From: a virus
Reading direction: 5' to 3' (one strand)
IMG/VR virus record: IMGVR_UViG_3300021959_000424
Coordinates: 1 to 22,837 of that record
DNA: 22,837 nt
Numbering within the stretch: position 1 is the first letter of the stretch; each line of letters begins with the position of its first letter. Made by a program: the position numbers and the translations under genes. The notes beneath the pieces were generated by a model. It saw only the letters and a list, made by a program, of their open reading frames with translations, was not told the origin of the DNA and ran no database searches. This document shows, in pieces, positions 5,396 through 22,837 of the stretch.

Positions 5396-7149
5396 TGTCT
5401 ACACAAAGAAGAACCAGATATGATAGAACAAGAGGCGTTGGACTAGGCTCCGGCGTATACGTTGCATCAGTTGTTAGTGTAATGGATCCTACATTTAACG
5501 GTAGATTAAAAGTTACACTATTAAAAGATCAAGGTAACGAAGTTGGAACAGAGAACCAAACATTCCTTGTAAGTTATGCTTCGCCATTCTTTGGAATGAC
5601 TCCGTATGAAGCACAAGGTAAAAACTTAGAAGATTTCAACGATTCTCAAAAATCCTACGGTATGTGGGCAGTGCCGCCTGATGTTGGAGTAAAAGTTTTA
5701 GTTTTATTTGCCGACGGTGATCCAGGTAAGGGTTATTGGTTTGCTTGTGTGCCACCTAGTTTTGCTAACCATATGGTACCTGCAATTGGTGCTACAACAA
5801 ACGTGGCTATTAGTGATGAAGATAAAAAACGTTATAACACAAAACAACCATTGCCTGTTGCAGAAATAAACAAACGTATTAATGCAACGGATCAAGAAGT
5901 AGATGCTGAAAAAATCAAAAAGGCTGTACACCCTATTGCTGATAGATTTTTAAGACAAGGCACAATTGAAGATGATGTAAGAGGACCTAGTGTTACTAGT
6001 GCTAGACGACAAGTTCCTAATACTGCATTTGGTATATCTACACCAGGTCCTTTAGATTACAGCCCGGGTGCCAAGCGTATGAATATTGGCCCTACAGAGT
6101 CTCAAACAAGAACTCCTATTCCTGTAAGCAGATTGGGAGGAACTCAATTTGTTATGGATGATGGCGACGATAGATATCAACGTAAAACAGCACCAGGTGT
6201 AGGACCAGTTGAATATGCAGATATAAATGCAGGTGAAAAAGGCGTAGTTGATATTCCTTATAACGAATACACAAGAATAAGAACAAGAACGGGACATCAA
6301 CTGTTACTACATAACTCAGAAGATTTAATATATCTTACAAATTCAGGCGGTACTGCTTGGATTGAAATGACCAGTAACGGCAAAATTGATATCTACGGTG
6401 CAGACAGTATCAGTGTACACAGCGAGAATGATCTAAACATTAGAGCAGATAGAGATATAAACATTGAAGCAGGTAGAAACATTAATATGAAAGCAACAGC
6501 AGAATATGTTTCACCTGACGAACTACATCGCAGAGCAGAAGGCGAAACAAAAACCGTTTCTAAGATAGAAGATGGTGCTGGTATTGAATCAGGAAGAATT
6601 CAAATCGAAAGTGCATTCAACACAAATATTTTGATCGGTGCCAATGGTAAGATTGAAACCAGAACTTATGAGTATGCCGACGAAGTTCCTGCTAACGGAG
6701 ATCTTGATATTAGAGTAGCAGGTAATCATAGACATACAATTAATGGTAATACCGATATCTACACTCTTGGTGATAGGTCAGACACACAAAGAAATTGGGA
6801 TATTAAAACTGAAGGATACAATTACTTAACATCTGGTAAAAACACAGAACTTGCAGTAGGCGGTGACATATTGATGTCAGCAAGTCCAAACATACACCTA
6901 AACGGACCTGCTGCAACAGATGCAGCACAGGCAGATCCTGCGTTATCTATAACAGATTTAATTACACACGATAATATTTTTACAAATACTGTGAGTGAAT
7001 GGGCAACCACTAAGTATCAGCAAGGGGCATTTAACAGTATTATGAAAAGGGTACCGATGCACGAACCTTGGGCACTACACGAAAACCAATCGCCTAATTT
7101 CTTAACTCCTTCTGATACAGATAGAGAAATACCACCGAGCGAGGAATAA
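5395..7149 (+). CDS. 5: gp5 baseplate hub/spike protein with OB-fold and beta-helix, no visible lysozyme domain
   Basis: The 584-residue product is the central spike of the baseplate. Residues about 15-130 form the gp5/VgrG-type OB domain (GVYVASVVSVMDP, GRLKVTLL, YGMWAVPPDVGVKVLVLFADGDPGKGYWFACVP in sequence). A polar linker follows, about 135-280 (ISTPGPLDY, GGTQFVMDDGDD). From about 283 the chain becomes beta-helical: RIRTRTGHQLLLHN, TNSGGTAWIEM, GKIDIYGADSISVHS, NDLNIRADRDINIEAGRNINM, then less regular repeats to about 500. A conserved-looking C-terminal tail contains RVPMHEPWALHENQSP. T4 gp5 (575 aa) carries a lysozyme domain between OB and helix; I see no such segment here although the length is similar, the helix part being longer. 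The ATG overlaps the upstream stop (TAATG); AAGGA at 5377-5381 is the likely ribosome site. Confidence 0.85.
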   Translation: MSTQRRTRYDRTRGVGLGSGVYVASVVSVMDPTFNGRLKVTLLKDQGNEVGTENQTFLVSYASPFFGMTPYEAQGKNLEDFNDSQKSYGMWAVPPDVGVKVLVLFADGDPGKGYWFACVPPSFANHMVPAIGATTNVAISDEDKKRYNTKQPLPVAEINKRINATDQEVDAEKIKKAVHPIADRFLRQGTIEDDVRGPSVTSARRQVPNTAFGISTPGPLDYSPGAKRMNIGPTESQTRTPIPVSRLGGTQFVMDDGDDRYQRKTAPGVGPVEYADINAGEKGVVDIPYNEYTRIRTRTGHQLLLHNSEDLIYLTNSGGTAWIEMTSNGKIDIYGADSISVHSENDLNIRADRDINIEAGRNINMKATAEYVSPDELHRRAEGETKTVSKIEDGAGIESGRIQIESAFNTNILIGANGKIETRTYEYADEVPANGDLDIRVAGNHRHTINGNTDIYTLGDRSDTQRNWDIKTEGYNYLTSGKNTELAVGGDILMSASPNIHLNGPAATDAAQADPALSITDLITHDNIFTNTVSEWATTKYQQGAFNSIMKRVPMHEPWALHENQSPNFLTPSDTDREIPPSEE

Positions 7150-7152
7150 TAG

Positions 7153-7590
7153 ATGGCAAACTTATATAATCAAAAGAAAGTAGCAGTAAACAAAGCATCT
7201 GTAGGTGATCAAACATCAAGTACATTCACGTACAAAGGATTTAGCAGTCAAAATGCTAAACAAGGTTTTAAACTTTATGATATTGATCTTGTTAAACAGG
7301 ATCTTATCAATCACTTTTATATTAAAAAAGGTGAAAAGTTACAAAATCCTGATTTTGGAACTATTATTTGGGATATGATATTTGAACCTTTTACTGAAGA
7401 AACAAAAAAATTAATTGCTGATGATGTAGAAACTATAGTGAACTATGATCCTAGAGTAGTAGTTGATAGTGTTTCGGTTGACAGTACAGAAATGGGTATG
7501 CGAATAGAAGCAAGTATTACATATTTGCCATTTAATGTAAGCGATAGAATGACATTTGATTTTGACAGAACAACATCAACAATAAAGTAA
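7153..7590 (+). CDS. 25: gp25 baseplate wedge subunit (TssE family)
   Basis: The 145-residue protein fits gp25 of T4 (132 aa), the small wedge component that helps anchor the first sheath ring and is related to TssE of type VI secretion systems. Visible family features are KKGEKLQNPDFGT (58-70), IIWDMIFEPFTEE (71-83) and the conserved core motif near residue 99. That motif reads D-P-R here (YDPRVV) where many gp25/TssE proteins have E-P-R. The C-terminus ends in beta-type sequence (ITYLPFNVSDRMTFDFDR). The ATG is three bases after the gene 5 stop, and GAGGAA at 7141-7146, inside the gene 5 end, is the ribosome site. Confidence 0.9.
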   Translation: MANLYNQKKVAVNKASVGDQTSSTFTYKGFSSQNAKQGFKLYDIDLVKQDLINHFYIKKGEKLQNPDFGTIIWDMIFEPFTEETKKLIADDVETIVNYDPRVVVDSVSVDSTEMGMRIEASITYLPFNVSDRMTFDFDRTTSTIK

Positions 7591-7634: not shown

Positions 7635-10600
7635 ATGAGCACTACATCAAGACAAAATAATTTAATACTTAATGAGGACTGGACTCGCATTTATCAGACG
7701 TTTCGTAACGCTGATTTCAAGTCTTATGACTTCGAGAACCTGCGTAGAGTTATCATTACCTACTTGCGTGAAAATTACCCAGAAGATTTTAATGATTATA
7801 TCGAATCATCAGAGTACCTAGCACTTATTGATGCCATTGCATTCCTTGGACAGAGTTTATCTTTTAGACTAGATCTTGCAAGTAGAGAAAATTTTATTGA
7901 ATTAGCAGAGCGTAAGGAAAGTGTTCTAAGAATTGCTAAGATGCTTTCTTATAATGCTAAACGTAATGTTCCTGCAAAAGGTCTTTTAAAGTTTGTTAGT
8001 GTTACTACATCAGAAGATGTTGTTGATAGCAACGGACGTAACCTAGCACAACAAACAGTTCGTTGGAACGATCCAACAAATACTAACTGGGCAGAACAGT
8101 TTATTCTTGTGTTGAACACCGCAATGAGTGACAATACAGAATTTGGTAGGAGCCAAGGTACTGCTACTATTCAAAGTATTCCGACAGAGCAGTATAGATT
8201 TAGATCTTTTTCAGCAGATGTTCCGATTTACTCCTTTAGTAAATCAGTCGCAGGTCGAAATATGGTGTTTGAATTAGTCAGCACTACATTTAAAGATGCA
8301 GAAGAAATTTATGAAGAATCACCAACTCCTGGAAACCAGTTAGGTTTTGTATATAGACAAGATGGTCAAGGACCAGGAAGTGCAAACACAGGGTTTTACT
8401 TACAATTTAAACAAGGTAGTTTAGAACTTGCAGATTTTAATATTGGTGTTCCTACTACAAATGAGCGTGTTGCAGTAGAAAGTCAAAATATTAATAATGA
8501 TGATGTTTGGTTGTACAATATTAATCCAAACGGATCACAAGGAACAGAGTGGTTAAAAGTTTCAAACCTTATTGGAAACAACATTGCATATAACAGTATT
8601 GTAGGCGGAAGTAGAGATATCTATGCTGTCAACACAAGAGAAAACGATAAAATTGATTTAGTATTTGCAGATGGAGTGTACGGAAATTTACCACAAGGTA
8701 ATTTTAGAACATATTATAGAGTAAGTAATGGATTAAGTTATACAATTTCTCCTAATGAGTTAAGAGGTATTAATATTACTGTACCATATCTTAACAAGGC
8801 AGGCGCAAGACATAATATTACTATTGGTTTAGCATTACAACAAAGTGTAAACAGTGCAGCACCAACAGAATCAATTGACAGTATCAGACAGAATGCACCT
8901 GCAAATTATTATACACAAAATAGAATGATTACAGGTGAAGATTATAATCTTGCTCCGTTGTCTACTTCACAAAATATTTTAAAGGTAAAATCAGTTAACA
9001 GAACTTCAAGCGGAATTTCACGTAATATTGATATTATTGATGCTAGTGGAAAATATGGTTCAATCAATGTATTCGGAGATGACGGGTACATCTATAAGCA
9101 GGAATCAGAAAATACATTAAGTTTTAAATTTACTAGTAGAACTGACATTATTAATTTTATTAAAAATAGAATAGAAAGTGTGTTTGCAGATACAGATGTT
9201 TATAATTTCTATATAACACGTTTTGAAAAGATACTATTTTCTGAAACTACAATTGAATGGAACAGTATCACTAATGATACTAATATCGGTACAGGATACT
9301 TTGTTAATAATATTGACCAAAGTTTACTTAAAGTAGGAACTTATGCAACTAATAACCTTAAGTTTTTGTTATCTGGTGCTAATCTTAAGTTTTTACCACC
9401 AGCAGGAAAAGCATTTAAGAATAGTGCTATTGTAGATATTAACGAAGATGATAGCGAACAAAGAAGTTACCTATGGACAAAAGTACAAAGTGTTGTAGGT
9501 GACGGTACTAACGCAGGCAGAGGAGTATTAACAACAGGACTAGGTCCGATTACATTCACTGATAATATTCCAACAGGCGCTATTGCAAACAGAATTGTTC
9601 CTAAATTTGTATCAGATATTAGTACTGCTATCGAAGCACAAATGACAAATATTATTTTTGCAAACTTAAACTTTGGTTTAAGGTACGATATTAATACAGC
9701 ACAGTGGAAAATTATTCAAGCAGAAAATTTAGATGTAACTTCTGCATTTGGTTTAGGTAAAGCGGGTGATACTACAAGTGAAAATCTTGATGCTAGTTGG
9801 ATAATTGCATTTGTTAAAGATAACGATCAGTATGTTGTTAGAATTAGAAAACTAGACTATGTGTTTGGTAGTGTTTCACAAAATAGATTTTATTTTGATA
9901 AAAATGACAAGGCCTATAATAACATTACAGGAAAACTTGAAAAAGATTCTGTTAGAGTTTTAGGTATTAATAAAACAAGTCAAGGAATTGGATCATTAGT
10001 TCAAGATTATTCTTTTGAAATTTCTGACACTATTAAATTTGATGATGGATACGAATCTACTAATGAAATTAAATTAGCATTTTCTGATAAAGATAGCGAT
10101 GGTGTTGTTGACGATCCGCAATCTTTTGAAAATATTGTAGGATCAGATTTAGATTTAAATTTCTTATTCTTCCAAGAAGTAACTGACGCATACGGTACAT
10201 CTGTTTTTAATCTTGTTGATCCAAGTGTTACAAACATTATTATTGCACAACGAGAATCGCAAGTTAATATTAATGACTATAATGACGGTCAACTAATTTA
10301 TTTTTATGATGACAATGAAGATAGAGTAAAAAGTGTAAACAAAGCAACTAACACACTACAACTTGAAACTTCGTATAAAGCAGAAATTGGAAGAAGAGAT
10401 CTTAAGTTCCAATATACACACGCAGCAAGTACTGACAGACGAATTGATCCAAGTGTAACTAATATTGTTGATATTTTTATTTTAACTAGATCATATGATA
10501 CTTCTTTTAGAAATTACCTTGCAGGAGCAGGAACACAACCTGCTGAACCAACGTCAGAAGATTTAAGAATATCATTTGGCTCGGGTCTTAATCAAATAAA

Positions 10601-11033
10601 AGCAATAAGCGATGAAATTATATATCATCCTGTAAAATATAAAGTGTTGTTTGGAACAACAGCAACACAACAAGTACAAGCACAATTTAAGGTTGTTAAA
10701 AATCCTAATAAAACTATTAATGACAACAACCTAAAAGTAAGAATTGTAAATGCAATTAATACTTTCTTTAGTATTAATAACTGGGATTTCGGAGATAGAT
10801 TTTATCTTAGTGAACTGACTGCATTTATTATTAATTCAGTATCTCCAGATGTTACTAATTTTGTAATCTTACCTAGAGATCCAGCACAAGTGTTTGGCAG
10901 TTTGTTTGAAATTCAAAGTAAGCCTGATGAAATTTTTGTAAGCGGAGCAACTGTAGATGATATCGAAATCGTATCCTCGATCACTGCTGCTGAAATTAGA
11001 GCAGGCACTGGAACAGTGGTGAGTGATACATAA
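7635..11033 (+). CDS. 6: gp6 baseplate wedge subunit, enlarged (1132 aa)
   Basis: gp6 forms the dimeric ring that links wedges (T4 660 aa; gpJ-like core). The N-terminus is diagnostic: LNEDWTRIYQTFRNADF, YLRENYPEDFNDYIESSEY, then AFLGQSLSFRLDLASRENFIELA and LSYNAKRNVPAKG within residues 1-120. A middle part, about 410-450, has RQNAPANYYTQNRMITGEDYN, usual in this family. The C-terminal core, about 1020-1100, has NPNKTINDNNLKVRIVNAIN, FGDRFYLSELTAFI and a final TAAEIRAG tail. Between these lie large extra beta-rich parts, including QWKIIQAENLD...LDASWIIAF at about 690-740 and an acidic DKDSDGVVDD loop at 818-827. The excess over T4 is about 470 residues. The ATG at 7635 follows AGGAATAGGA. The stop overlaps the next gene (TAATG). 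Confidence 0.88.
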   Translation: MSTTSRQNNLILNEDWTRIYQTFRNADFKSYDFENLRRVIITYLRENYPEDFNDYIESSEYLALIDAIAFLGQSLSFRLDLASRENFIELAERKESVLRIAKMLSYNAKRNVPAKGLLKFVSVTTSEDVVDSNGRNLAQQTVRWNDPTNTNWAEQFILVLNTAMSDNTEFGRSQGTATIQSIPTEQYRFRSFSADVPIYSFSKSVAGRNMVFELVSTTFKDAEEIYEESPTPGNQLGFVYRQDGQGPGSANTGFYLQFKQGSLELADFNIGVPTTNERVAVESQNINNDDVWLYNINPNGSQGTEWLKVSNLIGNNIAYNSIVGGSRDIYAVNTRENDKIDLVFADGVYGNLPQGNFRTYYRVSNGLSYTISPNELRGINITVPYLNKAGARHNITIGLALQQSVNSAAPTESIDSIRQNAPANYYTQNRMITGEDYNLAPLSTSQNILKVKSVNRTSSGISRNIDIIDASGKYGSINVFGDDGYIYKQESENTLSFKFTSRTDIINFIKNRIESVFADTDVYNFYITRFEKILFSETTIEWNSITNDTNIGTGYFVNNIDQSLLKVGTYATNNLKFLLSGANLKFLPPAGKAFKNSAIVDINEDDSEQRSYLWTKVQSVVGDGTNAGRGVLTTGLGPITFTDNIPTGAIANRIVPKFVSDISTAIEAQMTNIIFANLNFGLRYDINTAQWKIIQAENLDVTSAFGLGKAGDTTSENLDASWIIAFVKDNDQYVVRIRKLDYVFGSVSQNRFYFDKNDKAYNNITGKLEKDSVRVLGINKTSQGIGSLVQDYSFEISDTIKFDDGYESTNEIKLAFSDKDSDGVVDDPQSFENIVGSDLDLNFLFFQEVTDAYGTSVFNLVDPSVTNIIIAQRESQVNINDYNDGQLIYFYDDNEDRVKSVNKATNTLQLETSYKAEIGRRDLKFQYTHAASTDRRIDPSVTNIVDIFILTRSYDTSFRNYLAGAGTQPAEPTSEDLRISFGSGLNQIKAISDEIIYHPVKYKVLFGTTATQQVQAQFKVVKNPNKTINDNNLKVRIVNAINTFFSINNWDFGDRFYLSELTAFIINSVSPDVTNFVILPRDPAQVFGSLFEIQSKPDEIFVSGATVDDIEIVSSITAAEIRAGTGTVVSDT
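10086..10115 (+). other. Ca2+-binding-like loop DKDSDGVVDD in gp6
   Basis: Residues 818-827 of gp6 follow the D-x-D-x-D-G pattern of EF-hand, dockerin and thrombospondin type 3 loops. The flanking sequence does not show the paired helices of an EF-hand, so a stand-alone calcium loop between beta segments is more likely. The motif is short and could be chance in an Asp-rich protein. Confidence 0.4.
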
Positions 11034-14000
11034 TGGCAGATAAAAAAGTCTTCCCCAACAGCAATATTCCAATTAGAAAATCTTCAGAATTTTTACCTGA
11101 CGTTTTTAAAACTGAAACCAATAATAAATTTTTAGGGGGCGTTTTAGATCCTCTAATTCAACCTGGCGCAACAGATAAACTTACAGGGTATGTCGGTCGA
11201 CGTTACGGAAAAACTTACAATACTAAAGATATCTATCTTGATGATGACGATACATTACGTAGCAGGTATCAACTTGAACCAGGTGTAACTATTGAAAAAG
11301 ATAGAAAGGTAGAAGATTTTTATGATTATATTGATTTTAAAAATATTTTAAATTACTTTGGTAACTATAACGATCGTGACGATATTTTAAATAAACAAGA
11401 ACATTATTCTTGGAACCCTCCTATTGACTGGGACAAGTTTACAAACTATAGAGAATATTTTTGGGCACCCCAAGGTCCTCCATCTGTTCCTGTATACGGA
11501 CAGAACAGTGCAATAACATCTACATATAAAGTGTCTCCGGGTGTTAATAGTTGGATATTTACGCCTGATGGTGCAACTAATAGTCCTAACCTTAAATTAT
11601 ATAGAGGACAAACATACCGTTTTGAAGTTAACAGTCCGCTCGAAGGATTTATTATTAGAACAAACTACGATACAGGAAGTTTGCTTTATGATGCACGAAT
11701 TTCTTATTTTGTAGGTGACTATGCAATTTTTGATGATAAACTTTGGCGTGCCAAAGTTGATATCACACCAGCAGACGGAAGTACAATTAGTGTTGATTCG
11801 CAAGACTGGGAATTAGTAGATAATAACGCTGTACTAGAATCATTAACATACAATACCGGTATAATTAATAACGGAGCAAAAAGAGGTGTAGTAACATTTA
11901 CTGTGCCTTTAGATTCGCCTGATGTTTTATACTATCAAAGTGACGTCAATCCTAATAGACTAGGACAGTTTATAATTGGCGATATTCAAGATGCTACGTT
12001 TATCGATCCTACAAATGAGATTGTTGGTAAAAAAGATTATACAAGTGCTAACGGTATAAAACTTAGTAACGGACTAGTAATAGAATTTAGAGGCGAAGTA
12101 GCAGAAGAAAAGTATGCTCAAGGTACTTGGCTAGTTGAAGGTGTAGGTAAAGAAATTTCTTTAACAAGATTTACAGATCTTATTCCTCCAACAGTAACAA
12201 CCACTACTCCGGAAATTTTGTTTGACAATGAAGGATTTGATTCTCAGCCCTATGATGATGCTACACAGTTTCCAGGATCAAAAGATTATATTACAATCAA
12301 TAGAACAAGTAGAGATTTAAATCCGTGGAGTAGATATAATAGATGGTTTCATAGAACAGTCTTAGAGTATGCACATACTTTTAGAGGAGAAGACTTTGAT
12401 GCTAGTGAAGATACTAGAGCAAAACGTCCTATTATTGAATTCCATCCTAACATCCAACTGTTCAATCACGGCGGCCAAGCGAAACAAACAGTAGACTACA
12501 TTGATGACTTTACAACTGATATTTTCTCAAAAATAGAAGGAAGTACAGGTTACAGCGTTGATGGAGAGTTCTTGTTCGAAGGAGCAAGAGTACTTGTAAT
12601 TTCTGATACAGATAATTTAGCAAATAATAAAATTTACGAAGTTAAGTTTATCATACACAACGGTCGTAAACAAATTAATCTTAGAGAAACAGAAGATACA
12701 GTATCAACAGAAAATGAGTGTGTATTGGTTAGACGCGGCGCAGAAAATGCAGGACTAATGTACCATTTCAACGGATCCAAATGGATTGCGAGTCAACCTA
12801 AAACTTCAATAAACCAATATCCGTTATTTGATCTATATGATAAAGATGGGTATAGTTACGGCGATACTTCTGTGTATCCGGTTACTACATTTAATGGTTC
12901 GCCTATATTGAGTTATGCTGTAGGCACTGGCCGAACAGATCCTGAATTAGGGTTTAAATTAAAATATCAAAATATCAATAACGTAGGCGATATTACTTTT
13001 CACTGGAATTTAGATAGTGATACTTTTCAATATACACAACTTCAAAAAACTGTTTCAGTTCCAATAAGAGAAGGCTATTTAAAAATTGAAAACCAGTATG
13101 ATAACGGTTGGCTAAAAACAGATGAAAAATATTTACAGCCTATTATTAACACAGTTAAAATTGACACCGATGGTGTGATAGCATTAGACTGGAGTAACAC
13201 AATTGATTGGGCACAAACAACAAACAACTTAGAGGTGTGTTTTTATAGAAACGGTATAAAACTTAAAGACACATACACAAGAACACTATCTACTTTTGTT
13301 TTTGACAATACTGAATTTTCAGCAGGTGATGTTGTAACTATTAAAATTATTGATAATGTTTCTCCTATTACAGGTTATTATGAATTTCCTGTAGGATTAC
13401 AAAACAATCCACTTAATACAACAATTACTGAATTTACATTAGGACAAGCATCAGATCATTTAAGCACAGCACTAGAATTTAATGAAGAATTTGTTGGAGT
13501 TATTCCAGGTGTATCTAATCTAAGAGATTTGTCAGGATTTCAAGTTCACACTAAACGTTTTATGAAACATAGTGGTGTTGCAGCAGCATCTGTTGCATTA
13601 CTAAATGATAAAGATTACAACTTAATTAAATCTATTCAATATGCTAAAAAAGCCTACAGTGTTTTCAAAGATAGTTTTATTAAAAAAGCAAATGAAGTAG
13701 AGTTTGAAGATGTACCAGCAAATTTTGTAGATAGTATTATTGAAGAACTAACACGAACAAAAAGTGTAGCAAGTCCATTTGCCGATACTGATGTTATTGG
13801 TTCTGGCGCATTTACTTCAATTGATTATGAAGTTGACGATGTTGGTATTACAACCTTTGCGTTAAACAATAACTTTGATACAACAGTATTATCTAGAAAA
13901 GCAGTTTATGTTTATATTAATGATAGACAACTACTTTTAAATGCAGAATATACAATTGATGCTAATTTTAGTTTTGTTAGAATTAGTAAAGAATTGCTAA

Positions 14001-17000
14001 GAGGCGATAAGATACAAATTAGAGAATACGTATCAACTTCCTTTAGTTATATCCCTCCAACTCCTGCTTCATTAGGAATTTATAAGAAGTATACTCCTAA
14101 AAAGTTTTTAGATGATACTTATCGTGAACCTAAAGAAGTAATACAAGGCCACGATGGCAGTATTACAATTGCATACGGCGATTTCAGAGATGACTTATTA
14201 TTAGAACTAGAATATAGAATCTATAATAATATTAAAGAAAATTATGATGAAACTGTTTTTGATATTGATAGTATCATAGGTAGTTATTATTATAGAACAG
14301 ATTTTACAAAACAGCAATTTGACGACATTGTAAATCAAGAATTTTTAAAATGGGTTGCAGATACAAAATTAGGATATACTCTTAACGAATATTTTAAAGA
14401 AAATGAACCGTTTACATATACCTATAACGAAATGGCAAGTCCAGATGGTACCGAGTCGTTGCCTGGCTGGTGGAGAGGGGTATACAAGTATTATTATGAT
14501 ACAGACCGCCCACATTCACATCCTTGGGAATGCTTAGGCTTTACTGAAAAACCAACTTGGTGGGACGATGAATATGGAAAAGCCCCATATACAAGTGGCA
14601 ACTTATTATTATGGGAAGATATTAGAGACGGTATTGTTAGACAAGGCAATAGAGCAGGTACATATCCTCGTTATGCTAGAACAAGTATATTAAAACACAT
14701 TCCATCAGATGCTGACGGCGAACTTGTAGATCCTTTAACAAGTGGTTTAGCAACTAATTTTGTGTTATTTAATAATCAAGGCAGTTTTAAACTTGGAGAC
14801 ATCGGCCCTGTAGAATATGCTTGGCGTTCAAGTTCTGAATATCCATTTGCAGTTGCTATAGCAATGTGTTTAGTCAAACCATTTGAATTTATTATTAGTA
14901 ATTTTGATAGATCAAAATCTAAAAGAAATATTTTAAATCAAATTATCGATAAAACTACAGACACATTTATAACCCCTGCAGAATTAAAATTACCAGTTGC
15001 TGGAGAACTGCAAACATCAGGATTAGCAAACTATATAACTTCTTATATTAAAAGTAGAGGAATATCTGTAGCAGATGTACAAGAAGATTTACAAAATTTA
15101 AATGTTAGACTATCATCAAGACTAAGCGGATTTGTTGATCAAGAACAACAGAGATATGCAGTAGATAGTAAGAATCCTAAATCAACTTCTAGTAATTCTT
15201 TTATACCGCCTGAAAACTTTGATATTATTTTTGATGTAAGTTCTCCTATTTCCACTATTACATATAGCGGAATAATTTTTGAAAAAACAGCAAACGGTTG
15301 GACTGCATCAGGATATGATGATGTAAAACCGTACTTTGAATATTTTGAAGCAGTACCTAATCAGAAAGATCCTGTAATCAGTGTTGGCGGACTCAGCGAG
15401 TCTTTTACTGTTTGGGCGCCTGACACACGATTTGCAAACGGCACAATAGTAGATAATAAAGGAACATATTTTAGGGCAAAAGAGTCACATACTTCAACTG
15501 GGGAGTTTGATGAAACATTTTGGACCAAGTTGCCTGAACTTCCAGTAGTAGGAGCAACTACGGCACAGAGACGAAGAAACTTTAATACAACCGTAATAAA
15601 AAGATTATCATACGGAGAGCAATTTAGTTCTATCCAAGCAGTTGCAGACTTTTTACTAGGACACCAAGAATATCTTAAATCAGCAGGTTTAGTTTTTGAT
15701 AACTATGACGGGACTACACAGTCTGTACAAGACTGGACAACTGCATTAAAAGAGTTTATGTTTTGGACACAGCATAACTGGGCTCAAGGGTCATTACTTA
15801 CAGTTAGTCCAGGTGCACAAAAATTAACAATTGAAGTTGCAGTAGGTGTAGCAGACAATCTACTAGATGGATTTTATGAATACAATATATTAGGAAGCAA
15901 TGGTAGTCCTCTAGATACAAAAAATATTAATGTAGATAGATCATTCCAAAAATTTACAATTTCAACTGTTGATACCGAAGACGGAATTTATTACTTAAAA
16001 GTAAATCTTGTTCTTAAAGAGCACGTAACTATATTCGATGATAGAACAGTATTCAACGACGTAATATTTGATAAACCTAGTGGTTACAGACAAGAACGAA
16101 TTAGATCACAAGGTTTTAGAACAGTAGACTGGGACGGTGATTACACCAGCCCTGGCTTTATATTTGACAATGTTAATATAGTTGCTTGGCAACCTTTTAG
16201 AAATTATAAACTAGGCGATATTGTTCAGTATAGATCTAATAACTATACAAGTTTAATTACACATACAAGTGAGCAAGAGTTTAACAATGCTAACTGGACA
16301 GTTCTTGATTCAGAACCTACAAAACAACTTATTCCTAATTTTGATTATAGAATTAATCAAATTGAAGATTATTTTAATGTTGATAGTTCGGGACTAGGCA
16401 AGAGTCAAAGAGACCTTGCAAGACACACTGTTGGTTATCAAACAAGAACATATTTAGAATCTATTGCTGAAGATCCAACAACACAGTTTCAAATTTATCA
16501 AGGGTTTATTAGAGAAAAAGGAAGTAAGAATCCTATTTCAAAAATCTTTAATAAAAAAACTAATACAGATTCTGGAGTACAACTAGATGAACAATGGGCA
16601 TTTAAAGTTGGTACAATGGGAGGTGATGCACAATCTTATAATATTGAGTTATCACTAGACACTGAACAGTTTAAAGTAAATCCACAGCCTGTTGTAATTA
16701 CACCAGAAACAGGAAACTTTTTAGATAGATATTACAGAGTTAATCAAAGCAATTTTGATTATGCTCCTATTCCATATACTGATGATATTAATCCTGTTAC
16801 AGAAAATTATAAACCAACACAAACAGCAGGGTATGTAAAATTAGGACAAACAGAATATGTTATTAAACATTTTTCAGATATTAGTACAGAACTAGATGTA
16901 AACACAGTAAGCAATAACCAACATATTTGGATTACATTCAGTGGACCTACCTGGACAGTAAAAAGAATTAATGTAGCATTTGAACTTCCTATTATAGGAG

Positions 17001-20000
17001 TTACTGTGAATAATACAACAGTAACCATTGACTTTGGAAAGCGTCATAATTTTGCTGTTGATGAATATATTGGTATAAAAGACCTAGCAGATATTTCAGG
17101 GTTTTATCAAATTACTAGTATAACAAATAATACTATTACATATGAACTTGCTAAAAAAGCACCTAATGATGAATATGATACAAGTACAGCAGTTTATCCA
17201 ATTTATTTTACTGATGTAAGATATAATTCTTACAATGATCTAAGCGAAGAAGAAATTGCATTACTACAAAACAAATCAAAATTATGGATCGATCATAATG
17301 GTGAACTTAAATGGGAAGTTGTAGAGAAGAATAAAGTTTACGAAAGTAAACAAATTACAAACTACGGGTTATCAGAGCCTGTAAGAGTTGGCGAAAAGGT
17401 ATTATATAATCCTGCACTTAAACAGGTAATTGCAAGTGCAACTGCTACACCTAGAGTAATTGTTTATTTAGAAACTGTACAAGGTCTTTCAGTTAAGCAA
17501 ATTTTACAACCACCTGATGCAATGATTGACGGAAATATAAATTCATTTGGTTTAGAAATTGCTATTAGCCCAGACAGTAAATGGCTAGCAGTAGGCTCTC
17601 CTAAGGCCACTGGTATAAACAGTAACTATAGAGGAGAATACAATCCTTATGTTGCATACGGCCAAAACCAAATTGTACTATATTCAGGAAGATTATGGAA
17701 ATCAAAAATTGACATTGAGCCAGATGGCAGCTCAATTAACATTTATTCTCAAGATTGGGAACAAGTAAAAACTGTCGAAGCAGTTGACTTCGGTAGTAAC
17801 GATGGCGAAACACAAATGGGAAGTGTTACATTATATGAATGGACACTTAACCAATGGAACTATAAATCAACAATACTAAGTCCCCGCCAAGAAGCGTTTG
17901 AACATTTTGGACACGCTATTGCTTTAGGTAAAACCGACAACGGTTACACTATGGCAGTAAGTGCTCCAGGATCATTACACGCAAAAGGTAGAGTATGGTT
18001 ATACCACTATACTGAAGATACTGGTTGGGAAACTATTCAAAACACAAACTATGTCGGTGAATACAATCCAGGAGAGATATTCTTTGAAGGTCAAATTTCA
18101 AATGATGTCTTAACTGTAAAAGCATTAGGTGATAGTACACCTATTGCAGGTAAGTTAAAATCCGGAGCCAGTGTAATTGGCGAAGGTGTACTAGAAGGCA
18201 CATATATTCTGGAACAACTTGATTGGCCTGTTTCAGATGATGGAACTATCCATACCGAAAAAGGTGGAGTCGGAACTTATAGAGTTTCAAAAAATCATAC
18301 AGTACCTACCAATAGTGTTAGAATGGAGTCGAACTATTTTTATCCGTCGGGCTCAGTTGTTACCTATGGTGGTAAGTTTTGGCAAGCGCAGTATGACACC
18401 TATGGGGATGGTAGTACATTAAGCATAGACTCCAATGAGTGGTCGCAACTTGATGCAGTTGCCACTCAAGCATCGCTGCCACAAAGTCTTGCATTAGACG
18501 ACGATGGTTCTAGTTTGTTCACAGGTTTACTTACCGACGGACAAGTCAATGAATTAGTAATGAATGGACATAGATTTGGTTCATCATTGTCAATGAGTTA
18601 TGACGGTAAAGTGTTAGTTGTTGGTGCACCTGATGCAGATAATCAGTTTTTCCCTAACTATAAAGGTGTATGGAGACCAGATTATGAATATATTCAGGGA
18701 GATGTTGTAAAGTACCAAAATGCATATCACAGACTGTCTAATATTGGCCCATCGCAGGTGCCGCAGGATAGTACTATTAGAAGTTACAACGAAGATCCAA
18801 GTAACGGTTATCCTTGGGTAGATGCAGGTGATAGTTCTGCAAATATTACTGGTAAAATGTATATCTATAGAAAAGACACAGTTGGCAATTATTCACTAGT
18901 ACAAACAGTTGCCGCAGACAACTTAGATGATTTTAATGATTTAAATCAAGCACATCCAGACAAAATTGCTGCCGGCGATAAGTTCGGTTATGCTGTTGCG
19001 GTAGACTATTCAGGTAATAATATTGTTGTAAGTAGTCCGCAGGCAGATATTAACTATCAAAACCAAGGTAGTGCATATATCTTTGAATATAAAAATGATT
19101 CAAGTGTGTACGAATATCGTATTGTACAGAAACTAGAAAGTTTTGATAGATTCCCTAATGAATTTTTCGGCCAATCTATTTGTATTAGTCCGAACACTTC
19201 AATAATTGCTATTGGTGCTAACAATAGTCCTTATGTGCAGCCTACAATTTATGATTCATCACAAACAACATTTGATGAAAAACGAACAACATTTAAAAAC
19301 TTTGATGGGTTTACAGGTAGTGTGTATGTGTTCGAGAAAAAAGAACACACATATTATTTGTCAGAGAAACTTGATGCTGATTTATCCTTAAATGAATCAT
19401 TTGGTACATCAGTTAGTTGTGAAGAAAATGTAGTTGTAGTTGGTTCGCCAGAATTTATTGAGCCAGTAACTGAAGGCAACAATATTGTGTTTACCGGTAA
19501 CAAAGTTGGTATGGTTAGAATGTTTAAAAAACCAACCGGAGTAAGTCCGTTAACTGTTATTACTTCACAACCGCAGCACATAGATTTAGAACAAATTAAA
19601 CGTATTTCACTTTATAAGAAAAATGATGATGTTAAAATACAAGATTTAGAATTTTTTGATCCTGCTAAACTAAAAATAGTTAATAGAGCAGAGCAAGAAA
19701 TTACATATAAAGTTCCTTTTGATCCAGCAGTGTATACTGTTGGTAACGATGAAGTAGTCGTTGATCCAGATATTAGTTGGAACAATGGTAAAAATGTTGG
19801 TAAACTTTGGTGGAACATTGCAAATGCTAAATGGATTGATTATGAGCAAGGCGATATTGCTTATAGAACATCTAATTGGGGTGCTCAAGCAGTTGGTAGT
19901 ACTATAGACATTTACGAATGGGTAGAATCTAAACTATTACCTAGTGAATGGTCAGTACTTGCTGATACTGCCGAAGGCTTAAACTTAAATATTTCAGGAC

Positions 20001-22837
20001 AGCCGTTATATCCTGATGATACAGCATATGCTATTAAAGAAATATTCAACACAAATACAGGACTTGCAACAGAAACACGATATTCTTATTGGGTTAGAAA
20101 TAAAACAACAGTACCATCAAACGTTGTAGGAAGAACAATTAGTGCTTCTACAGTATCTAGTTTAATTAGATCACCAGGTACAGTAGGAAATACTTTAATT
20201 GCTATTATAGATAAAAATAAATTCTTATTCTACAATTACAAAAATGTTGTTTCAGAAGATACAAATATTCTTAATATAGAATATTACACAGATAAAGACA
20301 GTAAAAATGCTGTACATAACGAATATCAGTTGTTAACTGAAGGTATAGCAGGAAGTGTTCCTACAGAGAAACTAGAAACCAAATGGTTAGATAGTTTAAT
20401 TGGTTACGACTCTGTTGGTAATAGAGTTCCTGATACTAAATTGGCTACAAAGCAACGATACGGAATAAGTTTCCGCCCAAGACAAAGTATGTTTGTAGAT
20501 AAAAGAAAAATTCTACAAATATTAGTCGGTAATATTAATACAATTCTTAAAAAAGAAGCGTTTGCTGATACCATAAATTATAGTACACTTAATAGTGTTG
20601 ATCCAGCACCAAGCGAATTGTTAAAATTATATGATACAAAAGTTTCATTCTATAGCGATCTCGAAAATGTAGGTACTATCAGAGTTAAGAAAGCAACACT
20701 GTCAGTAAACATTATTGATAGTGAAATTAACAGTATTACAATTACAGATCCAGGATACGGATATAAAGTTGCACCTAATGTAGAATTTGAAGGTGACGGT
20801 ACTGGTGCTGTTGCTACAACAACAATTGATAACCAAGGAAGAATTTCTAGTGTTACAGTAGTATCAAGCGGTAAAAAATATAGTTATGCTATTGCAAAAG
20901 TAAGAAACTTCAGTGTACTTGTTGAAAATGATGATACAGCAAATAATTACTGGAGTGTTTATGCCTGGGATGATGTAAGACAGATTTTCTTTAGAAGTCA
21001 ATCACAAGCATTTGACACTACAAGATACTGGACCAAAGAAGATTGGTGGAAAGAAGGTTATGGCGTAACATCTAGAATTGTAAAAGAAATTTTAAGTGTA
21101 TACCAAGAACCGACTGTAGAATTACAACCTGGAGATTTACTTAGAATTAATGAATATGGTGCAGGTGGCTGGGCAGTATTTGAAAAACAAGAAGGCGAGC
21201 CTAATGGAATTTTATTATCTAACTATAAATTAGTTGGTAGAGAAAGAGGTACTATTGAGCTATCACAAGATTTATGGAATACACAAGTAAGCGGTATTGG
21301 ATTTGATATTGTTGATTCATTTGACGCCGGCTTATATGATAAAGAAGTTGCTATTGAATTAAGAAATATTTTAAAAGCAATTAAAGAAGAAGTATTTGTT
21401 GGCGATTACAGTAACGAATGGAATAAATTATTCTTTACAAGCATTAGATATGTATTCCAAGAACAAACCTATGTTGACTGGGCATTTAAAACTAGTTTTA
21501 TTAGTGCAATACACAATGTTGGTGCATTCAAAACTACACCAACATATAAAAATGACAGTCTTGAAGCGTACCTAGAATATATTAATGAGATTAAACCATA
21601 CAGAACTACAGTAAAAGAGTTTATTAGTAAGTATGACCAATTAGAAACAAGTTATACATCTACAACAGATTTTGATTTGCCTCCAGTTTATAGTATTAGA
21701 GAAGGCAAGATTATCAATGTTGACGAGAACAACGAATTAATTAATTCATATCCTTATACACAATGGCGTGATAATAAAGGATTTGGTATTACGTCAATAT
21801 TAATTAGTAATGCAGGCGCTGGTTACACAAGTGTTCCTAATATTATTATTGAAGGTAACGGAACAGGAGCAAAAGCAACTGCATATATCTCAAATGGTAA
21901 GGTAAGTGGAATAACTGTAACAGCACAAGGCAGCGGATATACACAAACCCCAACGGTAAGAATTGTTGGCGGCAATGGAAGTAATGCAAATGATGCAAAA
22001 GCAGTTGCTACACTAGGAAATAGCAAGGTAAGAACAAATAATATAACAGTTAAGTTTGATAGACTTGACAAAGTAGGAAGATTTACTGAATTTGATTTCG
22101 AACAAACATTTACAGCATCAGGTGCAAGTGCAGTATTTGAATTATCATATCCTGCAACAGTTGATAAGTCTAAAATATCAATACTACAAGATGGACAAAT
22201 TGTTCTAGATAGTGAATATAGAATTGTACTGTATAGACAAAAAATAGATTTAGAAAATGTTTTAAGATGTAGAATTATATTTGATCAAAATCCACAAGCA
22301 GGTAGTGTAATTAAAATTACATATTCTAAAAACGATGAAATACTTGATAGTGTTAATAGAATAAACAAATATTACACACCGGGCACAGGAATGTTAGGTA
22401 AAGAATTACACCAGTTAATGACAGGTATAGATTTTGGTGGAGTTCTTGTACAAGGTACAACATTCGATGTTACTGGAGGATGGGACGCACTTCCTTGGTT
22501 TACAGATAGTTGGGATAGTGTAGAAGCAGCAGCAGACTTTTATGTAGTTTGTGACGGAAGTACAAATTTTATAACACTTCCATATGCTCCTATAGAAGGT
22601 CAGGTAATAACAATTTATTTAAAACGTGCTGGACAAGAACGTTTGCCAACAATTGATCAATTACAATATTCACAAACAGTTGCAGAACCTCCAACGTTAC
22701 GTATTGACGATCCAAACTTTGGATCATACACACCAGCAATACCAGCAGTACCAGGTTCGCCAGCAATACCAGCAGTACCAGGCGTACCAGCAGATGCAGA
22801 ATACAACAATGGTGCAATTATTAATGTAGTTGGCAAC
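11033..22837 (+). CDS. 7: gp7-like giant baseplate wedge protein, open at the window end (at least 3935 aa)
   Basis: Reading in frame from the ATG at 11033 gives 3935 sense codons with no stop up to the last base; T4 gp7 is 1032 aa. In T4, gp7 starts wedge assembly with gp10 and meets gp8, gp6, gp53 and gp25. Family-like stretches are WLVEGVG (about 366-372), RDLNPWSRYNRWFHRTV (about 430-446), NLRDLSGFQVHTKRF, IPPTPASLG, VIQGHDGSI, PGWWRGVYKYYYDTDRPHSH (1144-1163), GPVEYAWRSSSEYPF, FIPPENF (1390-1396), EFMFWTQHNW (1574-1583) and GYRQERIRSQGF (1684-1695). About 2170-2810 is a FG-GAP-like propeller region with inserted modules. About 2930-3780 holds further marine-phage sequence (DYEQGDIAYR, VDWAFKTSFI, TDFDLPP, GMLGKELHQLMTGIDFGG). 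A Pro/Ala repeat starts at the window end. The ATG overlaps the gene 6 stop, with only a weak ribosome site (GGTGAGTG, 11018-11025), so coupling from gene 6 is likely. Whether all of it is one gp7 or a fusion with another virion protein cannot be decided here. Confidence 0.78.
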   Translation, partial: MADKKVFPNSNIPIRKSSEFLPDVFKTETNNKFLGGVLDPLIQPGATDKLTGYVGRRYGKTYNTKDIYLDDDDTLRSRYQLEPGVTIEKDRKVEDFYDYIDFKNILNYFGNYNDRDDILNKQEHYSWNPPIDWDKFTNYREYFWAPQGPPSVPVYGQNSAITSTYKVSPGVNSWIFTPDGATNSPNLKLYRGQTYRFEVNSPLEGFIIRTNYDTGSLLYDARISYFVGDYAIFDDKLWRAKVDITPADGSTISVDSQDWELVDNNAVLESLTYNTGIINNGAKRGVVTFTVPLDSPDVLYYQSDVNPNRLGQFIIGDIQDATFIDPTNEIVGKKDYTSANGIKLSNGLVIEFRGEVAEEKYAQGTWLVEGVGKEISLTRFTDLIPPTVTTTTPEILFDNEGFDSQPYDDATQFPGSKDYITINRTSRDLNPWSRYNRWFHRTVLEYAHTFRGEDFDASEDTRAKRPIIEFHPNIQLFNHGGQAKQTVDYIDDFTTDIFSKIEGSTGYSVDGEFLFEGARVLVISDTDNLANNKIYEVKFIIHNGRKQINLRETEDTVSTENECVLVRRGAENAGLMYHFNGSKWIASQPKTSINQYPLFDLYDKDGYSYGDTSVYPVTTFNGSPILSYAVGTGRTDPELGFKLKYQNINNVGDITFHWNLDSDTFQYTQLQKTVSVPIREGYLKIENQYDNGWLKTDEKYLQPIINTVKIDTDGVIALDWSNTIDWAQTTNNLEVCFYRNGIKLKDTYTRTLSTFVFDNTEFSAGDVVTIKIIDNVSPITGYYEFPVGLQNNPLNTTITEFTLGQASDHLSTALEFNEEFVGVIPGVSNLRDLSGFQVHTKRFMKHSGVAAASVALLNDKDYNLIKSIQYAKKAYSVFKDSFIKKANEVEFEDVPANFVDSIIEELTRTKSVASPFADTDVIGSGAFTSIDYEVDDVGITTFALNNNFDTTVLSRKAVYVYINDRQLLLNAEYTIDANFSFVRISKELLRGDKIQIREYVSTSFSYIPPTPASLGIYKKYTPKKFLDDTYREPKEVIQGHDGSITIAYGDFRDDLLLELEYRIYNNIKENYDETVFDIDSIIGSYYYRTDFTKQQFDDIVNQEFLKWVADTKLGYTLNEYFKENEPFTYTYNEMASPDGTESLPGWWRGVYKYYYDTDRPHSHPWECLGFTEKPTWWDDEYGKAPYTSGNLLLWEDIRDGIVRQGNRAGTYPRYARTSILKHIPSDADGELVDPLTSGLATNFVLFNNQGSFKLGDIGPVEYAWRSSSEYPFAVAIAMCLVKPFEFIISNFDRSKSKRNILNQIIDKTTDTFITPAELKLPVAGELQTSGLANYITSYIKSRGISVADVQEDLQNLNVRLSSRLSGFVDQEQQRYAVDSKNPKSTSSNSFIPPENFDIIFDVSSPISTITYSGIIFEKTANGWTASGYDDVKPYFEYFEAVPNQKDPVISVGGLSESFTVWAPDTRFANGTIVDNKGTYFRAKESHTSTGEFDETFWTKLPELPVVGATTAQRRRNFNTTVIKRLSYGEQFSSIQAVADFLLGHQEYLKSAGLVFDNYDGTTQSVQDWTTALKEFMFWTQHNWAQGSLLTVSPGAQKLTIEVAVGVADNLLDGFYEYNILGSNGSPLDTKNINVDRSFQKFTISTVDTEDGIYYLKVNLVLKEHVTIFDDRTVFNDVIFDKPSGYRQERIRSQGFRTVDWDGDYTSPGFIFDNVNIVAWQPFRNYKLGDIVQYRSNNYTSLITHTSEQEFNNANWTVLDSEPTKQLIPNFDYRINQIEDYFNVDSSGLGKSQRDLARHTVGYQTRTYLESIAEDPTTQFQIYQGFIREKGSKNPISKIFNKKTNTDSGVQLDEQWAFKVGTMGGDAQSYNIELSLDTEQFKVNPQPVVITPETGNFLDRYYRVNQSNFDYAPIPYTDDINPVTENYKPTQTAGYVKLGQTEYVIKHFSDISTELDVNTVSNNQHIWITFSGPTWTVKRINVAFELPIIGVTVNNTTVTIDFGKRHNFAVDEYIGIKDLADISGFYQITSITNNTITYELAKKAPNDEYDTSTAVYPIYFTDVRYNSYNDLSEEEIALLQNKSKLWIDHNGELKWEVVEKNKVYESKQITNYGLSEPVRVGEKVLYNPALKQVIASATATPRVIVYLETVQGLSVKQILQPPDAMIDGNINSFGLEIAISPDSKWLAVGSPKATGINSNYRGEYNPYVAYGQNQIVLYSGRLWKSKIDIEPDGSSINIYSQDWEQVKTVEAVDFGSNDGETQMGSVTLYEWTLNQWNYKSTILSPRQEAFEHFGHAIALGKTDNGYTMAVSAPGSLHAKGRVWLYHYTEDTGWETIQNTNYVGEYNPGEIFFEGQISNDVLTVKALGDSTPIAGKLKSGASVIGEGVLEGTYILEQLDWPVSDDGTIHTEKGGVGTYRVSKNHTVPTNSVRMESNYFYPSGSVVTYGGKFWQAQYDTYGDGSTLSIDSNEWSQLDAVATQASLPQSLALDDDGSSLFTGLLTDGQVNELVMNGHRFGSSLSMSYDGKVLVVGAPDADNQFFPNYKGVWRPDYEYIQGDVVKYQNAYHRLSNIGPSQVPQDSTIRSYNEDPSNGYPWVDAGDSSANITGKMYIYRKDTVGNYSLVQTVAADNLDDFNDLNQAHPDKIAAGDKFGYAVAVDYSGNNIVVSSPQADINYQNQGSAYIFEYKNDSSVYEYRIVQKLESFDRFPNEFFGQSICISPNTSIIAIGANNSPYVQPTIYDSSQTTFDEKRTTFKNFDGFTGSVYVFEKKEHTYYLSEKLDADLSLNESFGTSVSCEENVVVVGSPEFIEPVTEGNNIVFTGNKVGMVRMFKKPTGVSPLTVITSQPQHIDLEQIKRISLYKKNDDVKIQDLEFFDPAKLKIVNRAEQEITYKVPFDPAVYTVGNDEVVVDPDISWNNGKNVGKLWWNIANAKWIDYEQGDIAYRTSNWGAQAVGSTIDIYEWVESKLLPSEWSVLADTAEGLNLNISGQPLYPDDTAYAIKEIFNTNTGLATETRYSYWVRNKTTVPSNVVGRTISASTVSSLIRSPGTVGNTLIAIIDKNKFLFYNYKNVVSEDTNILNIEYYTDKDSKNAVHNEYQLLTEGIAGSVPTEKLETKWLDSLIGYDSVGNRVPDTKLATKQRYGISFRPRQSMFVDKRKILQILVGNINTILKKEAFADTINYSTLNSVDPAPSELLKLYDTKVSFYSDLENVGTIRVKKATLSVNIIDSEINSITITDPGYGYKVAPNVEFEGDGTGAVATTTIDNQGRISSVTVVSSGKKYSYAIAKVRNFSVLVENDDTANNYWSVYAWDDVRQIFFRSQSQAFDTTRYWTKEDWWKEGYGVTSRIVKEILSVYQEPTVELQPGDLLRINEYGAGGWAVFEKQEGEPNGILLSNYKLVGRERGTIELSQDLWNTQVSGIGFDIVDSFDAGLYDKEVAIELRNILKAIKEEVFVGDYSNEWNKLFFTSIRYVFQEQTYVDWAFKTSFISAIHNVGAFKTTPTYKNDSLEAYLEYINEIKPYRTTVKEFISKYDQLETSYTSTTDFDLPPVYSIREGKIINVDENNELINSYPYTQWRDNKGFGITSILISNAGAGYTSVPNIIIEGNGTGAKATAYISNGKVSGITVTAQGSGYTQTPTVRIVGGNGSNANDAKAVATLGNSKVRTNNITVKFDRLDKVGRFTEFDFEQTFTASGASAVFELSYPATVDKSKISILQDGQIVLDSEYRIVLYRQKIDLENVLRCRIIFDQNPQAGSVIKITYSKNDEILDSVNRINKYYTPGTGMLGKELHQLMTGIDFGGVLVQGTTFDVTGGWDALPWFTDSWDSVEAAADFYVVCDGSTNFITLPYAPIEGQVITIYLKRAGQERLPTIDQLQYSQTVAEPPTLRIDDPNFGSYTPAIPAVPGSPAIPAVPGVPADAEYNNGAIINVVGN
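11702..11821 (+). repeat. W/GD-type beta module, copy 1, in gp7-like protein
   Basis: The pattern is Y-F-V-G-D-Y-A-I-F, then KLWRAKVDI, then DGSTISVDSQDWELV. It is closely similar to the modules at 17642 and 18335 (shared L-W-x-x-K-x-D-I-x-P and S-Q-D-W-E-x-V). The spacing G-D-x-x-x-Y...W recalls small carbohydrate-binding modules of the CBM5/12 kind. Confidence 0.65.
13235..13360 (+). repeat. Tail-fibre-like beta module, copy 1
   Basis: The pattern is V-C-F-Y-R-N-G-I-K-L-K-D-T-Y, then T-F-V-F-D-N, then A-G-D-V-V-T-I-K-I-I-D. This 'xVxxNGxxLxxxxYx...F...GDxIxIxxY' arrangement recurs at 13904 and 22175 and is common in phage fibre and baseplate adhesins. Confidence 0.5.
13904..14029 (+). repeat. 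Tail-fibre-like beta module, copy 2
   Basis: The pattern is V-Y-V-Y-I-N-D-R-Q-L-L-L-N-A-E-Y-T-I, then F-V-R-I, then R-G-D-K-I-Q-I-R-E-Y. It has the same layout as the copies at 13235 and 22175. Confidence 0.55.
15413..15532 (+). repeat. W/GD-type beta module, copy 2
   Basis: The pattern is W-A-P-D-T-R-F-A-N-G-T-I-V, then G-T-Y-F-R-A-K-E-S-H-T-S, then F-W-T-K-L. It pairs best with the copy at 16187 (shared H-T-S...F...W-T-x-L). Confidence 0.6.
16187..16306 (+). repeat. W/GD-type beta module, copy 3
   Basis: The pattern is W-Q-P-F-R-N-Y-K-L-G-D-I-V-Q-Y, then N-N-Y-T-S-L, then H-T-S-E-Q-E-F, then N-W-T-V-L. Length and anchors are the same as copy 2. Confidence 0.65.
17642..17767 (+). repeat. 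W/GD-type beta module, copy 4, inserted between propeller blades 1 and 2
   Basis: The pattern is V-A-Y-G-Q-N-Q-I-V-L-Y, then RLWKSKIDIEPDGS, then SQDWEQV. It aligns with copy 1 with a one-residue gap across about 25 residues. Confidence 0.65.
18335..18451 (+). repeat. W/GD-type beta module, copy 5, inserted between propeller blades 2 and 3
   Basis: The pattern is Y-F-Y-P-S-G-S-V-V-T-Y, then KFWQAQYDT, then GDGSTLSIDSNEWSQL. It is similar to copies 1 and 4 (DGST.S.DS..W). Confidence 0.65.
18671..18829 (+). repeat. W/GD-type beta module, copy 6, inserted between propeller blades 3 and 4
   Basis: The pattern is W-R-P-D-Y-E-Y-I-Q-G-D-V-V-K-Y, then A-Y-H-R-L, then a longer polar loop, then P-W-V-D-A-G. 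It has a clear start motif like copy 3 and a diverged second half. Confidence 0.55.
20735..20881 (+). repeat. Glycine-rich beta repeat, copy 1
   Basis: The pattern is I-T-I-T-D-P-G-Y-G-Y, then P-N-V-E-F-E-G-D-G-T-G-A, then I-S-S-V-T-V-V-S-S-G-K-K-Y. This 'GxGYxxxPxVxxxGxGxGA' unit recurs at 21797. Confidence 0.6.
21797..22021 (+). repeat. Glycine-rich beta repeat, copy 2, with two half-units
   Basis: A first unit reads I-S-N-A-G-A-G-Y-T-S-V-P-N, then I-E-G-N-G-T-G-A-K-A. A second follows at once: V-T-A-Q-G-S-G-Y-T-Q-T-P-T-V-R-I-V-G-G-N-G. It resembles copy 1 and would form a short stacked beta structure. Confidence 0.6.
22175..22330 (+). repeat. Tail-fibre-like beta module, copy 3
   Basis: The pattern is I-S-I-L-Q-D-G-Q-I-V-L-D-S-E-Y-R-I, then R-C-R-I-I-F, then Q-A-G-S-V-I-K-I-T-Y. 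It has the same layout as the copies at 13235 and 13904. Confidence 0.55.
22733..22786 (+). repeat. 27-bp tandem repeat encoding PAIPAVPGx, two units plus start of a third
   Basis: Units 22733-22759 and 22760-22786 share their first 23 bases exactly and differ only in the last four. A third start (CCAGCA) follows at 22787. They encode PAIPAVPGS, PAIPAVPGV and PA. The Pro/Ala/Val/Gly composition suggests an extended or collagen-like linker. Near-identity in DNA, unlike the other repeats of this gene, points to recent duplication or slippage. Confidence 0.85.

Follow-up and report, generated by a model that had tools for sequence, protein, structure and literature searches.

Gene order around a giant reading frame

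The window, that is the whole stretch of 22,837 bases analysed here, is the entire public record and carries a run of virion genes on the plus strand that ends in a giant reading frame. Following a late sigma factor gene assigned by position only (gp55; 221–1063, minus strand) lie genes for a virion structural protein (PHROG 12050; 1146–2342), the baseplate wedge protein gp53 (2344–2643), a second virion structural protein (PHROG 11190; 2645–5395), a gp5-type hub/spike protein (5395–7149) and the baseplate wedge proteins gp25 (7153–7590) and gp6 (1132 aa; 7635–11033). The giant frame (11033–22837; 3935 codons, 3′ end missing) follows gp6 directly. PA5oct and GAP32 share the order gp55-x-gp53-x-gp5-gp25-gp6-giant, with some extra small genes in between. 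In the 916-aa protein at 2645–5395, the N-terminal motif TERRIQSNGNTANFNIDRSQPFID recurs near the C-terminus as TERRRQSNGVLVNFNIDRTKPFVD. The gp5-type protein has OB and spike-like family matches, with no lysozyme domain reported; GAP32 and 121Q have a separate lysozyme-annotated gene near the gp5-type locus.

The ATG that opens the giant frame overlaps the stop codon of gp6 (TAATG); the frame contains no stop over its 3935 codons and is still open at the last base of the window. At the base composition of the window, the chance of an open run of this length is ~10^-143. The sequence-only reading had described a single frame open for 11,805 bases from the overlap, nearly four times T4 gp7 (1032 aa), and both statements hold. 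In the closest relatives, loci L006 (4673 aa) and L008 (4678 aa), the stop lies ~740 codons past the window end; both are ~85% identical in amino acid sequence to the window giant and are without the mobile module described below. The comparison with L006, which was split into 13 blocks and covered 3,895 aligned codons, gave dS values of 0.9–1.4 and dN/dS values of 0.058–0.195. As these dN/dS values extend to all 13 blocks, every block codes in one frame, and purifying selection acts on the whole aligned giant frame.

We found complete giant reading frames at 75 loci, a count that takes in overlapping loci from one contig and includes isolate genomes. They comprise 59 distinct proteins of 3,345–5,051 aa, L022 (3,633 aa) being counted among them though short for its clade. 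Two scans of IMG/VR for relatives of the giant gave 80 and 50, and a third, from an alignment, at least 587 confirmed stretches. A sequencing error hiding a real stop/start pair, raised by the sequence-only reading as a threat to its claim, is excluded by the 75 intact loci, with dozens of independent intact frames, and by dN/dS values of 0.06–0.20.

Protein family, virion homologues and architecture

The giant belongs to PHROG 10938, the known giant virion proteins of RaK2/PA5oct-type jumbo myoviruses. The profile of this family matches the giant over the conserved core (E 0, 1017.6 bits); it is annotated as 'virion structural protein' and contains PA5oct gp355, Atu_ph07 gp180, GAP32 gp230 and 121Q gp582. 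A tblastn search against 50,697 phage records gave ~60 records among the matches listed, at ~21–32% identity, nearly all from jumbo myoviruses (PA5oct relatives, Atu_ph07, Phosso, SCTP-2, RaK2, GAP32, 121Q and others). A profile of the giant core (A2) gave reciprocal matches to PA5oct, Atu_ph07, SCTP-2 and GAP32, and in a search of predicted viral structures the best matches, reaching E 3.5e-63, came from Atu_ph07 and from uncultured phages. BFVD A0A2Z5HGI1, a viral protein of 750 aa, fits the fold of the giant core along most of its sequence (TMt 0.74) and is perhaps a minimal version of the giant or a gene fragment.

The position of the gene is conserved together with its sequence. The giant core and gp6 adjoin on the same strand, with 1.8–3.9 kb between matches, in 56 of the 57 isolate records that have both gp6 and giant-core rows among the matches listed; in 121Q, which lies outside this count, the giant also adjoins gp6. 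The exception is Salicola phage SCTP-2, where gp6 and the giant are ~100 kb apart. SCTP-2 gene 141 (L004:6612-15902), coding for 3,096 aa, lies directly upstream of the giant where others have gp6.

Homologues of the giant are found in virions. The record of PA5oct gp355 bears an ESI-MS/MS note. For phAPEC6, Table 1 of the virion mass spectrometry report gives gp245 with a mass of 381.88 kDa, 17 unique peptides and 7.6% coverage (PMC7247149), directly after gp244, a 'baseplate wedge' protein of 131.18 kDa (PMC7247149). The computed masses of 121Q gp582 and gp583 are 381.87 and 131.21 kDa; since this pair closely matches phAPEC6 gp245 and gp244 in mass, gp245 is very likely a homologue of the giant. 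As given in that table, the peptides speak for the presence of the homologues in virions, not for a chain that stays uncleaved.

Along the giant, conserved blocks (aa 1–200, 400–1900 and 2900–3600) alternate with variable stretches (aa 200–400 and 1900–2850), in which identity to isolates is mostly 2–17%. The core common to RaK2/PA5oct/Atu_ph07-type jumbo phages (aa 401–1710; 12233–16162) takes up most of the PHROG 10938 match, and the AlphaFold model of aa 790–1700 has a mean pLDDT of 87. This core contains a beta domain (aa 925–999; 13805–14029) weakly like podovirus fibre-adaptor and CBA120 TSP4 domains (Z 5–6.7) and a CBM5/12-like module (aa 1461–1500; 15413–15532); a second such module follows at aa 1719–1758 (16187–16306), with a Pfam CBM_5_12 match of E 4e-11 at aa 1718–1749. 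The CBM-like part of the core model aligns with chitin-binding domains and with a Milano baseplate protein (Z 7.3, 45 residues). We take the CBM-like and fibre-adaptor-like alignments as hints of fold, not of function.

The sequence-only reading had placed a repeat-rich region in the middle of the frame, and this region can now be resolved into FG-GAP repeats and CBM5/12-like modules at aa ~2172–2675. It corresponds to an accessory region (17546–19057) with FG-GAP repeats at aa 2172–2201, 2515–2545 and 2651–2675 and two more CBM5/12-like modules at aa 2432–2473 and 2547–2571, and it is largely missing from isolate homologues. At 81–96% identity, the accessory region does not exceed other parts in variability when the nearest relatives are compared; in the wider clade variability is highest there, with 23–54% identity against mostly 50–69%. 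CBM5/12-like stretches are repeated in other large reading frames (777–2786 aa) on the contigs of L127, L103, L066, L045 and L105, many of these rows in jumbo contigs being weak.

A second conserved block covers aa 2930–3620 (19820–21892; AlphaFold model pLDDT 79). Three Gly/Tyr repeats (aa 3235–3283, 3589–3636 and 3627–3672; span 20735–22048) are of a type common to cyanophage gp7, gp8 and gp14. The stretch at aa 2930–3780 had been called marine-phage-like; it does hold a conserved block, and the sole cyanophage link found is the short Gly/Tyr repeat.

The ~311-aa module and its carriers

At aa 3896, the alignment of the window giant with its nearest relatives stops; the giant runs into TPAIPAVPGSPAIPAVPGV-PADAEYNNGAIINVVGN and then ends. 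The departing segment consists of a Pro-rich linker with a 27-nt tandem repeat (aa 3900–3918; 22730–22786) and the first 17 codons of a mobile module (22787–22837), inside which the record ends. A linker and a module start of this type also occur in relatives, and there the sequence continues into a module of ~311 aa ending ..GENDTGVSGYVVD. The window appears to break off just where the giant enters this mobile domain. The 17 module residues of the window resemble a second subfamily of the module (L356, PADAEYNNGAISNVTGN; Syn33, DPEYNNGPIVNVVGD), and the 51 module nucleotides are 68.6% identical to the first subfamily. An exact-peptide scan of IMG/VR DNA with the last residues of the window gave no match. 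As the records of the window and of L016 both end inside the module, a chimeric contig end is possible for them.

The module matched nothing in a PDB sequence search with its profile, nothing above cut-off in Pfam and, searched alone, no PHROG family. The pattern D-x2-E-x2-EH-x-FHT-x-H is invariant in the module alignment, which suggests a putative metal site.

The module scan returned 84 relatives, of which 80 were kept; L320, whose frame is broken, was left out of the locus count, leaving 79. Module DNA of the first subfamily is 91–98% identical between giants over 882 nt, and the 1,500 nt upstream in the same giants are mostly ~63–80% identical or unalignable; L306 and L324, with flanks 99.9% identical, represent a duplicate phage. 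At the protein level, modules of first-subfamily giants are likewise 91–98% identical, and their second conserved blocks 38–62% (one pair 81%). The L016 giant carries the module, and L068, 95.6% identical to it over 3.45 kb upstream, is a complete giant without it. Metagenomes that were assembled separately show the same module junctions again (L306/L324, L311/L313, L357/L364, L358/L359 and L309/L316). Contigs end inside the module at 33 of the 79 loci, as expected of sequence common to many genomes. The module thereby offers a concrete reason for the break points of such metagenomic contigs, the window perhaps included. Loci that had not been picked for the module give 4 distinct giants with it, 78 without it and 21 that end before the point at which it could be seen. 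Among the module-carrying reading frames, 27 were classed as giants, a count that takes in four flagged by short repeats only (L312, L347, L371 and L384); the second conserved block is found in 23. At L307 the side downstream of the module is unlike L006, which may reflect a chimera or a different C-terminus.

Genes of other kinds carry the same module. At L309 (the same as L316) and L323 it lies inside the gene that follows gp25-gp6, which at L309 precedes gp8. Both carriers begin with a gp7-type region (KGSE and KGTE, respectively), supported at L309 by PHROG 17744 and at L323 by a gp7-core profile built from T4-type and cyanophage gp7 (A1; E 2e-10). The carriers at L317 and of the L329/L385 type we take to be subtilase-like proteins, on catalytic motifs judged by eye. 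At L315 the module lies in a fibre-like gene after gp13-gp14, at L318 in another virion-like reading frame, and at several L337/L340-type loci in a gene slightly downstream of the gp7-core gene. At ~50% identity the module is also present in 85 cyanophage records; the Syn33 copy lies in a 'baseplate wedge subunit'. As it also occurs in non-wedge genes, its presence alone is no proof of a wedge role. The subtilase-like protein at L317:5046-8786 and residues 3484–3591 of P-SSM2 gp7 have another segment of ~115 aa in common (38.8% identity), which adds to the signs of module exchange.

Matches in bacterial genomes number 15, of which 10 are free-standing reading frames of 369–458 codons; several of these begin with lipoprotein-like signals, as judged by eye, and three end exactly at the module end. 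A contig end in a Pirellulaceae bin (L399:2-277) is 98% identical to the phage module and is perhaps phage DNA binned with its host. In-frame homing insertions exist, one in a phage methylase being described (PMC11855218); an intein-like nature of the module is not supported, as its cellular relatives look like ordinary exported proteins.

On balance, we lean towards reading the gp7-locus proteins of aquatic phages as exchange platforms for a horizontally moving domain of ~311 aa, probably an enzyme or adhesin. The domain would correspond to the mature part of a lipoprotein family of marine bacteria, right up to the C-terminal end. It would have entered giant wedge proteins of jumbo phages at the same site, often after a Pro-rich linker, as well as genuine gp7s and subtilase-like and fibre-like genes of unrelated phages. 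Entry would be recent, given DNA 91–98% identical between giants and many flanks that cannot be aligned, and the domain would probably lend the baseplate a predicted metal-dependent enzyme or adhesin acting on the host surface. Recent domain sharing across phage families is reported as confined to tail fibres and tail spikes (PMC10684548); the near-identical module DNA described here occurs in genes for baseplate wedge proteins as well as in protease-like and fibre-like genes, in phages that are unrelated. We consider the module the less expected part of the giant and more worth following than the giant itself.

Relation of the giant to gp7

The sequence-only reading had recognised gp7-type sequence in the first ~1700 residues, and this was not confirmed: neither profiles nor Pfam nor PHROG searches matched this part to gp7. 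Profile A1 of the gp7 core (KG[IT]E region) finds T4 gp7 at E 2e-78 and P-SSM2 gp7 at E 4e-115, and the gp7 profiles of cyanophages and T4 match one another (92%, E 7e-7). In ten jumbo-type records A1 matched no protein, and it is a weak probe, reaching E 0.02 even for L309, an evident gp7; the giant-core profile A2 finds the same ten records and neither T4 nor P-SSM2. As a positive control, a gp6 profile from T4-type and cyanophage groups finds 17 of 17 jumbo gp6 proteins (E 4e-14 to 1.5e-8); in loci where it succeeded, the gp7 profile finds none of 16 giants. Pfam Gp7_helical, Gp7_5th and Gp7_6th, all present in T4 gp7, are found in none of the giants of the window, L006, L133, PA5oct and GAP32, and P-SSM2 gp7 is likewise missed by all three. 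Compared by BLAST with the wedge proteins of T4 and P-SSM2, giants gave only weak matches, mostly in repeats, and profile–profile comparison with T4 gp7, cyanophage gp7, gp8, gp9 and gp10 gave no support beyond one short repeat; the proposed check against T4 gp7 and gp10 thus revealed sequence of neither. A PDB sequence search of the giant frame returned nothing below E 0.2, and Foldseek searches of the PDB with the models of aa 790–1700 and 2930–3620 nothing at E <= 0.001. No gp7 chain occurs among the VIA rows for the two models, which is no evidence against a gp7 fold.

We propose that the giant is a single virion protein of jumbo myoviruses that probably does the job of gp7, with conserved blocks in the wedge and modules directed outward. 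In RaK2/PA5oct-type jumbo phages gp6 is recognisable and gp7 is not, which makes the giant the obvious gp7 candidate. The giant is a probable counterpart of gp7 in role, not a demonstrated member of the gp7 family, on the grounds of (i) its position next to gp6, (ii) the lack of any other detectable gp7 and (iii) the mobile module in common with real gp7s (L309/L316 and L323). The earlier suggestion of a wedge protein with surface-binding modules at the gp7 locus (gp25-gp6-giant) is in this respect probably right. The giant, ~4,700 aa in its nearest relatives, would stand at the place of T4 gp7; conserved blocks at aa ~1–200, ~400–1900 and ~2900–3620 and the C-terminus would pack with gp6 in the baseplate wedge, and the stretches between and after them would display exchangeable modules outward. 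These modules (CBM5/12-like folds and FG-GAP repeats and, in the window phage, the Pro-rich linker followed by the ~311-aa module) may contact host glycans or the host surface. Host recognition by the giant is plausible from this module content.

Counting against a gp7-like role are that gp7 sequence is nowhere found in the giant, that neither modelled region has a PDB fold match at E <= 0.001 and that the SCTP-2 giant lies far from gp6. The first and the last would fit a rival reading, in which the giant is a fibre, whisker or decoration protein that just happens to lie after gp6 and the true gp7 has diverged beyond recognition elsewhere in the genome; so would the CBM and FG-GAP modules and the fibre-adaptor-like fold. 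We consider this unlikely, because the giant adjoins gp6 in all but one of the 57 records, among the matches listed, has large conserved blocks without repeats and shares its module with real gp7 in T4-like phages. Far less probable is that gp7 has fused with gp8 or with some other wedge gene beside it, a version of which the sequence-only reading had offered: no downstream gene in relatives is identified as gp8, which P-SSM2 and Syn33 have as a separate gene, but T4 gp8, gp9 and gp10 and P-SSM2 gp8 give no profile match save one short repeat, and a 220-aa downstream gene could play the part of gp8. A gp7–gp8 fusion was rejected on the profile comparison with T4 gp8 and P-SSM2 gp8. Separate genes joined by an assembly or sequencing artefact, an account favoured by a contig that stops inside a type of sequence where many contigs break, are refuted for the giant frame up to aa ~3896 by the complete frames at 75 loci and by dN/dS <0.2 in each block; the last ~40 codons are known from the window contig alone.

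The giant enlarges PHROG 10938, a known family without a named function, and its role becomes testable; in the literature searched, we found no account of what the giant does, nor one of the mobile module. The isolate members of the family share with the window protein a homologous core, giant length (3,323–4,449 aa) and a gene adjoining gp6; they differ in that they are at most ~30% identical to it and that the FG-GAP/CBM accessory region is largely absent. T4 gp7 is likewise encoded directly after gp6 with a short overlap, but it is a protein of 1,032 aa with three Pfam gp7 domains that are not found in the window protein. Syn33_094, a 'baseplate wedge subunit' of 1,721 aa, carries the same module as the window giant at ~50% identity and is elsewhere a different protein (PHROG 708), encoded beside gp8 and gp9. 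Cyanophage P-SSM2 gp7 (PHROG 2885) contains a gp7 core, the region of the KGIE motif, which is not found in the window protein, and no homology was found otherwise; it resembles the giant in its gp25-gp6-gp7 locus, its size, its modular build and its Gly/Tyr repeat. With 5,195 aa annotated for P-SSM2 gp7, giant size alone is not novel.
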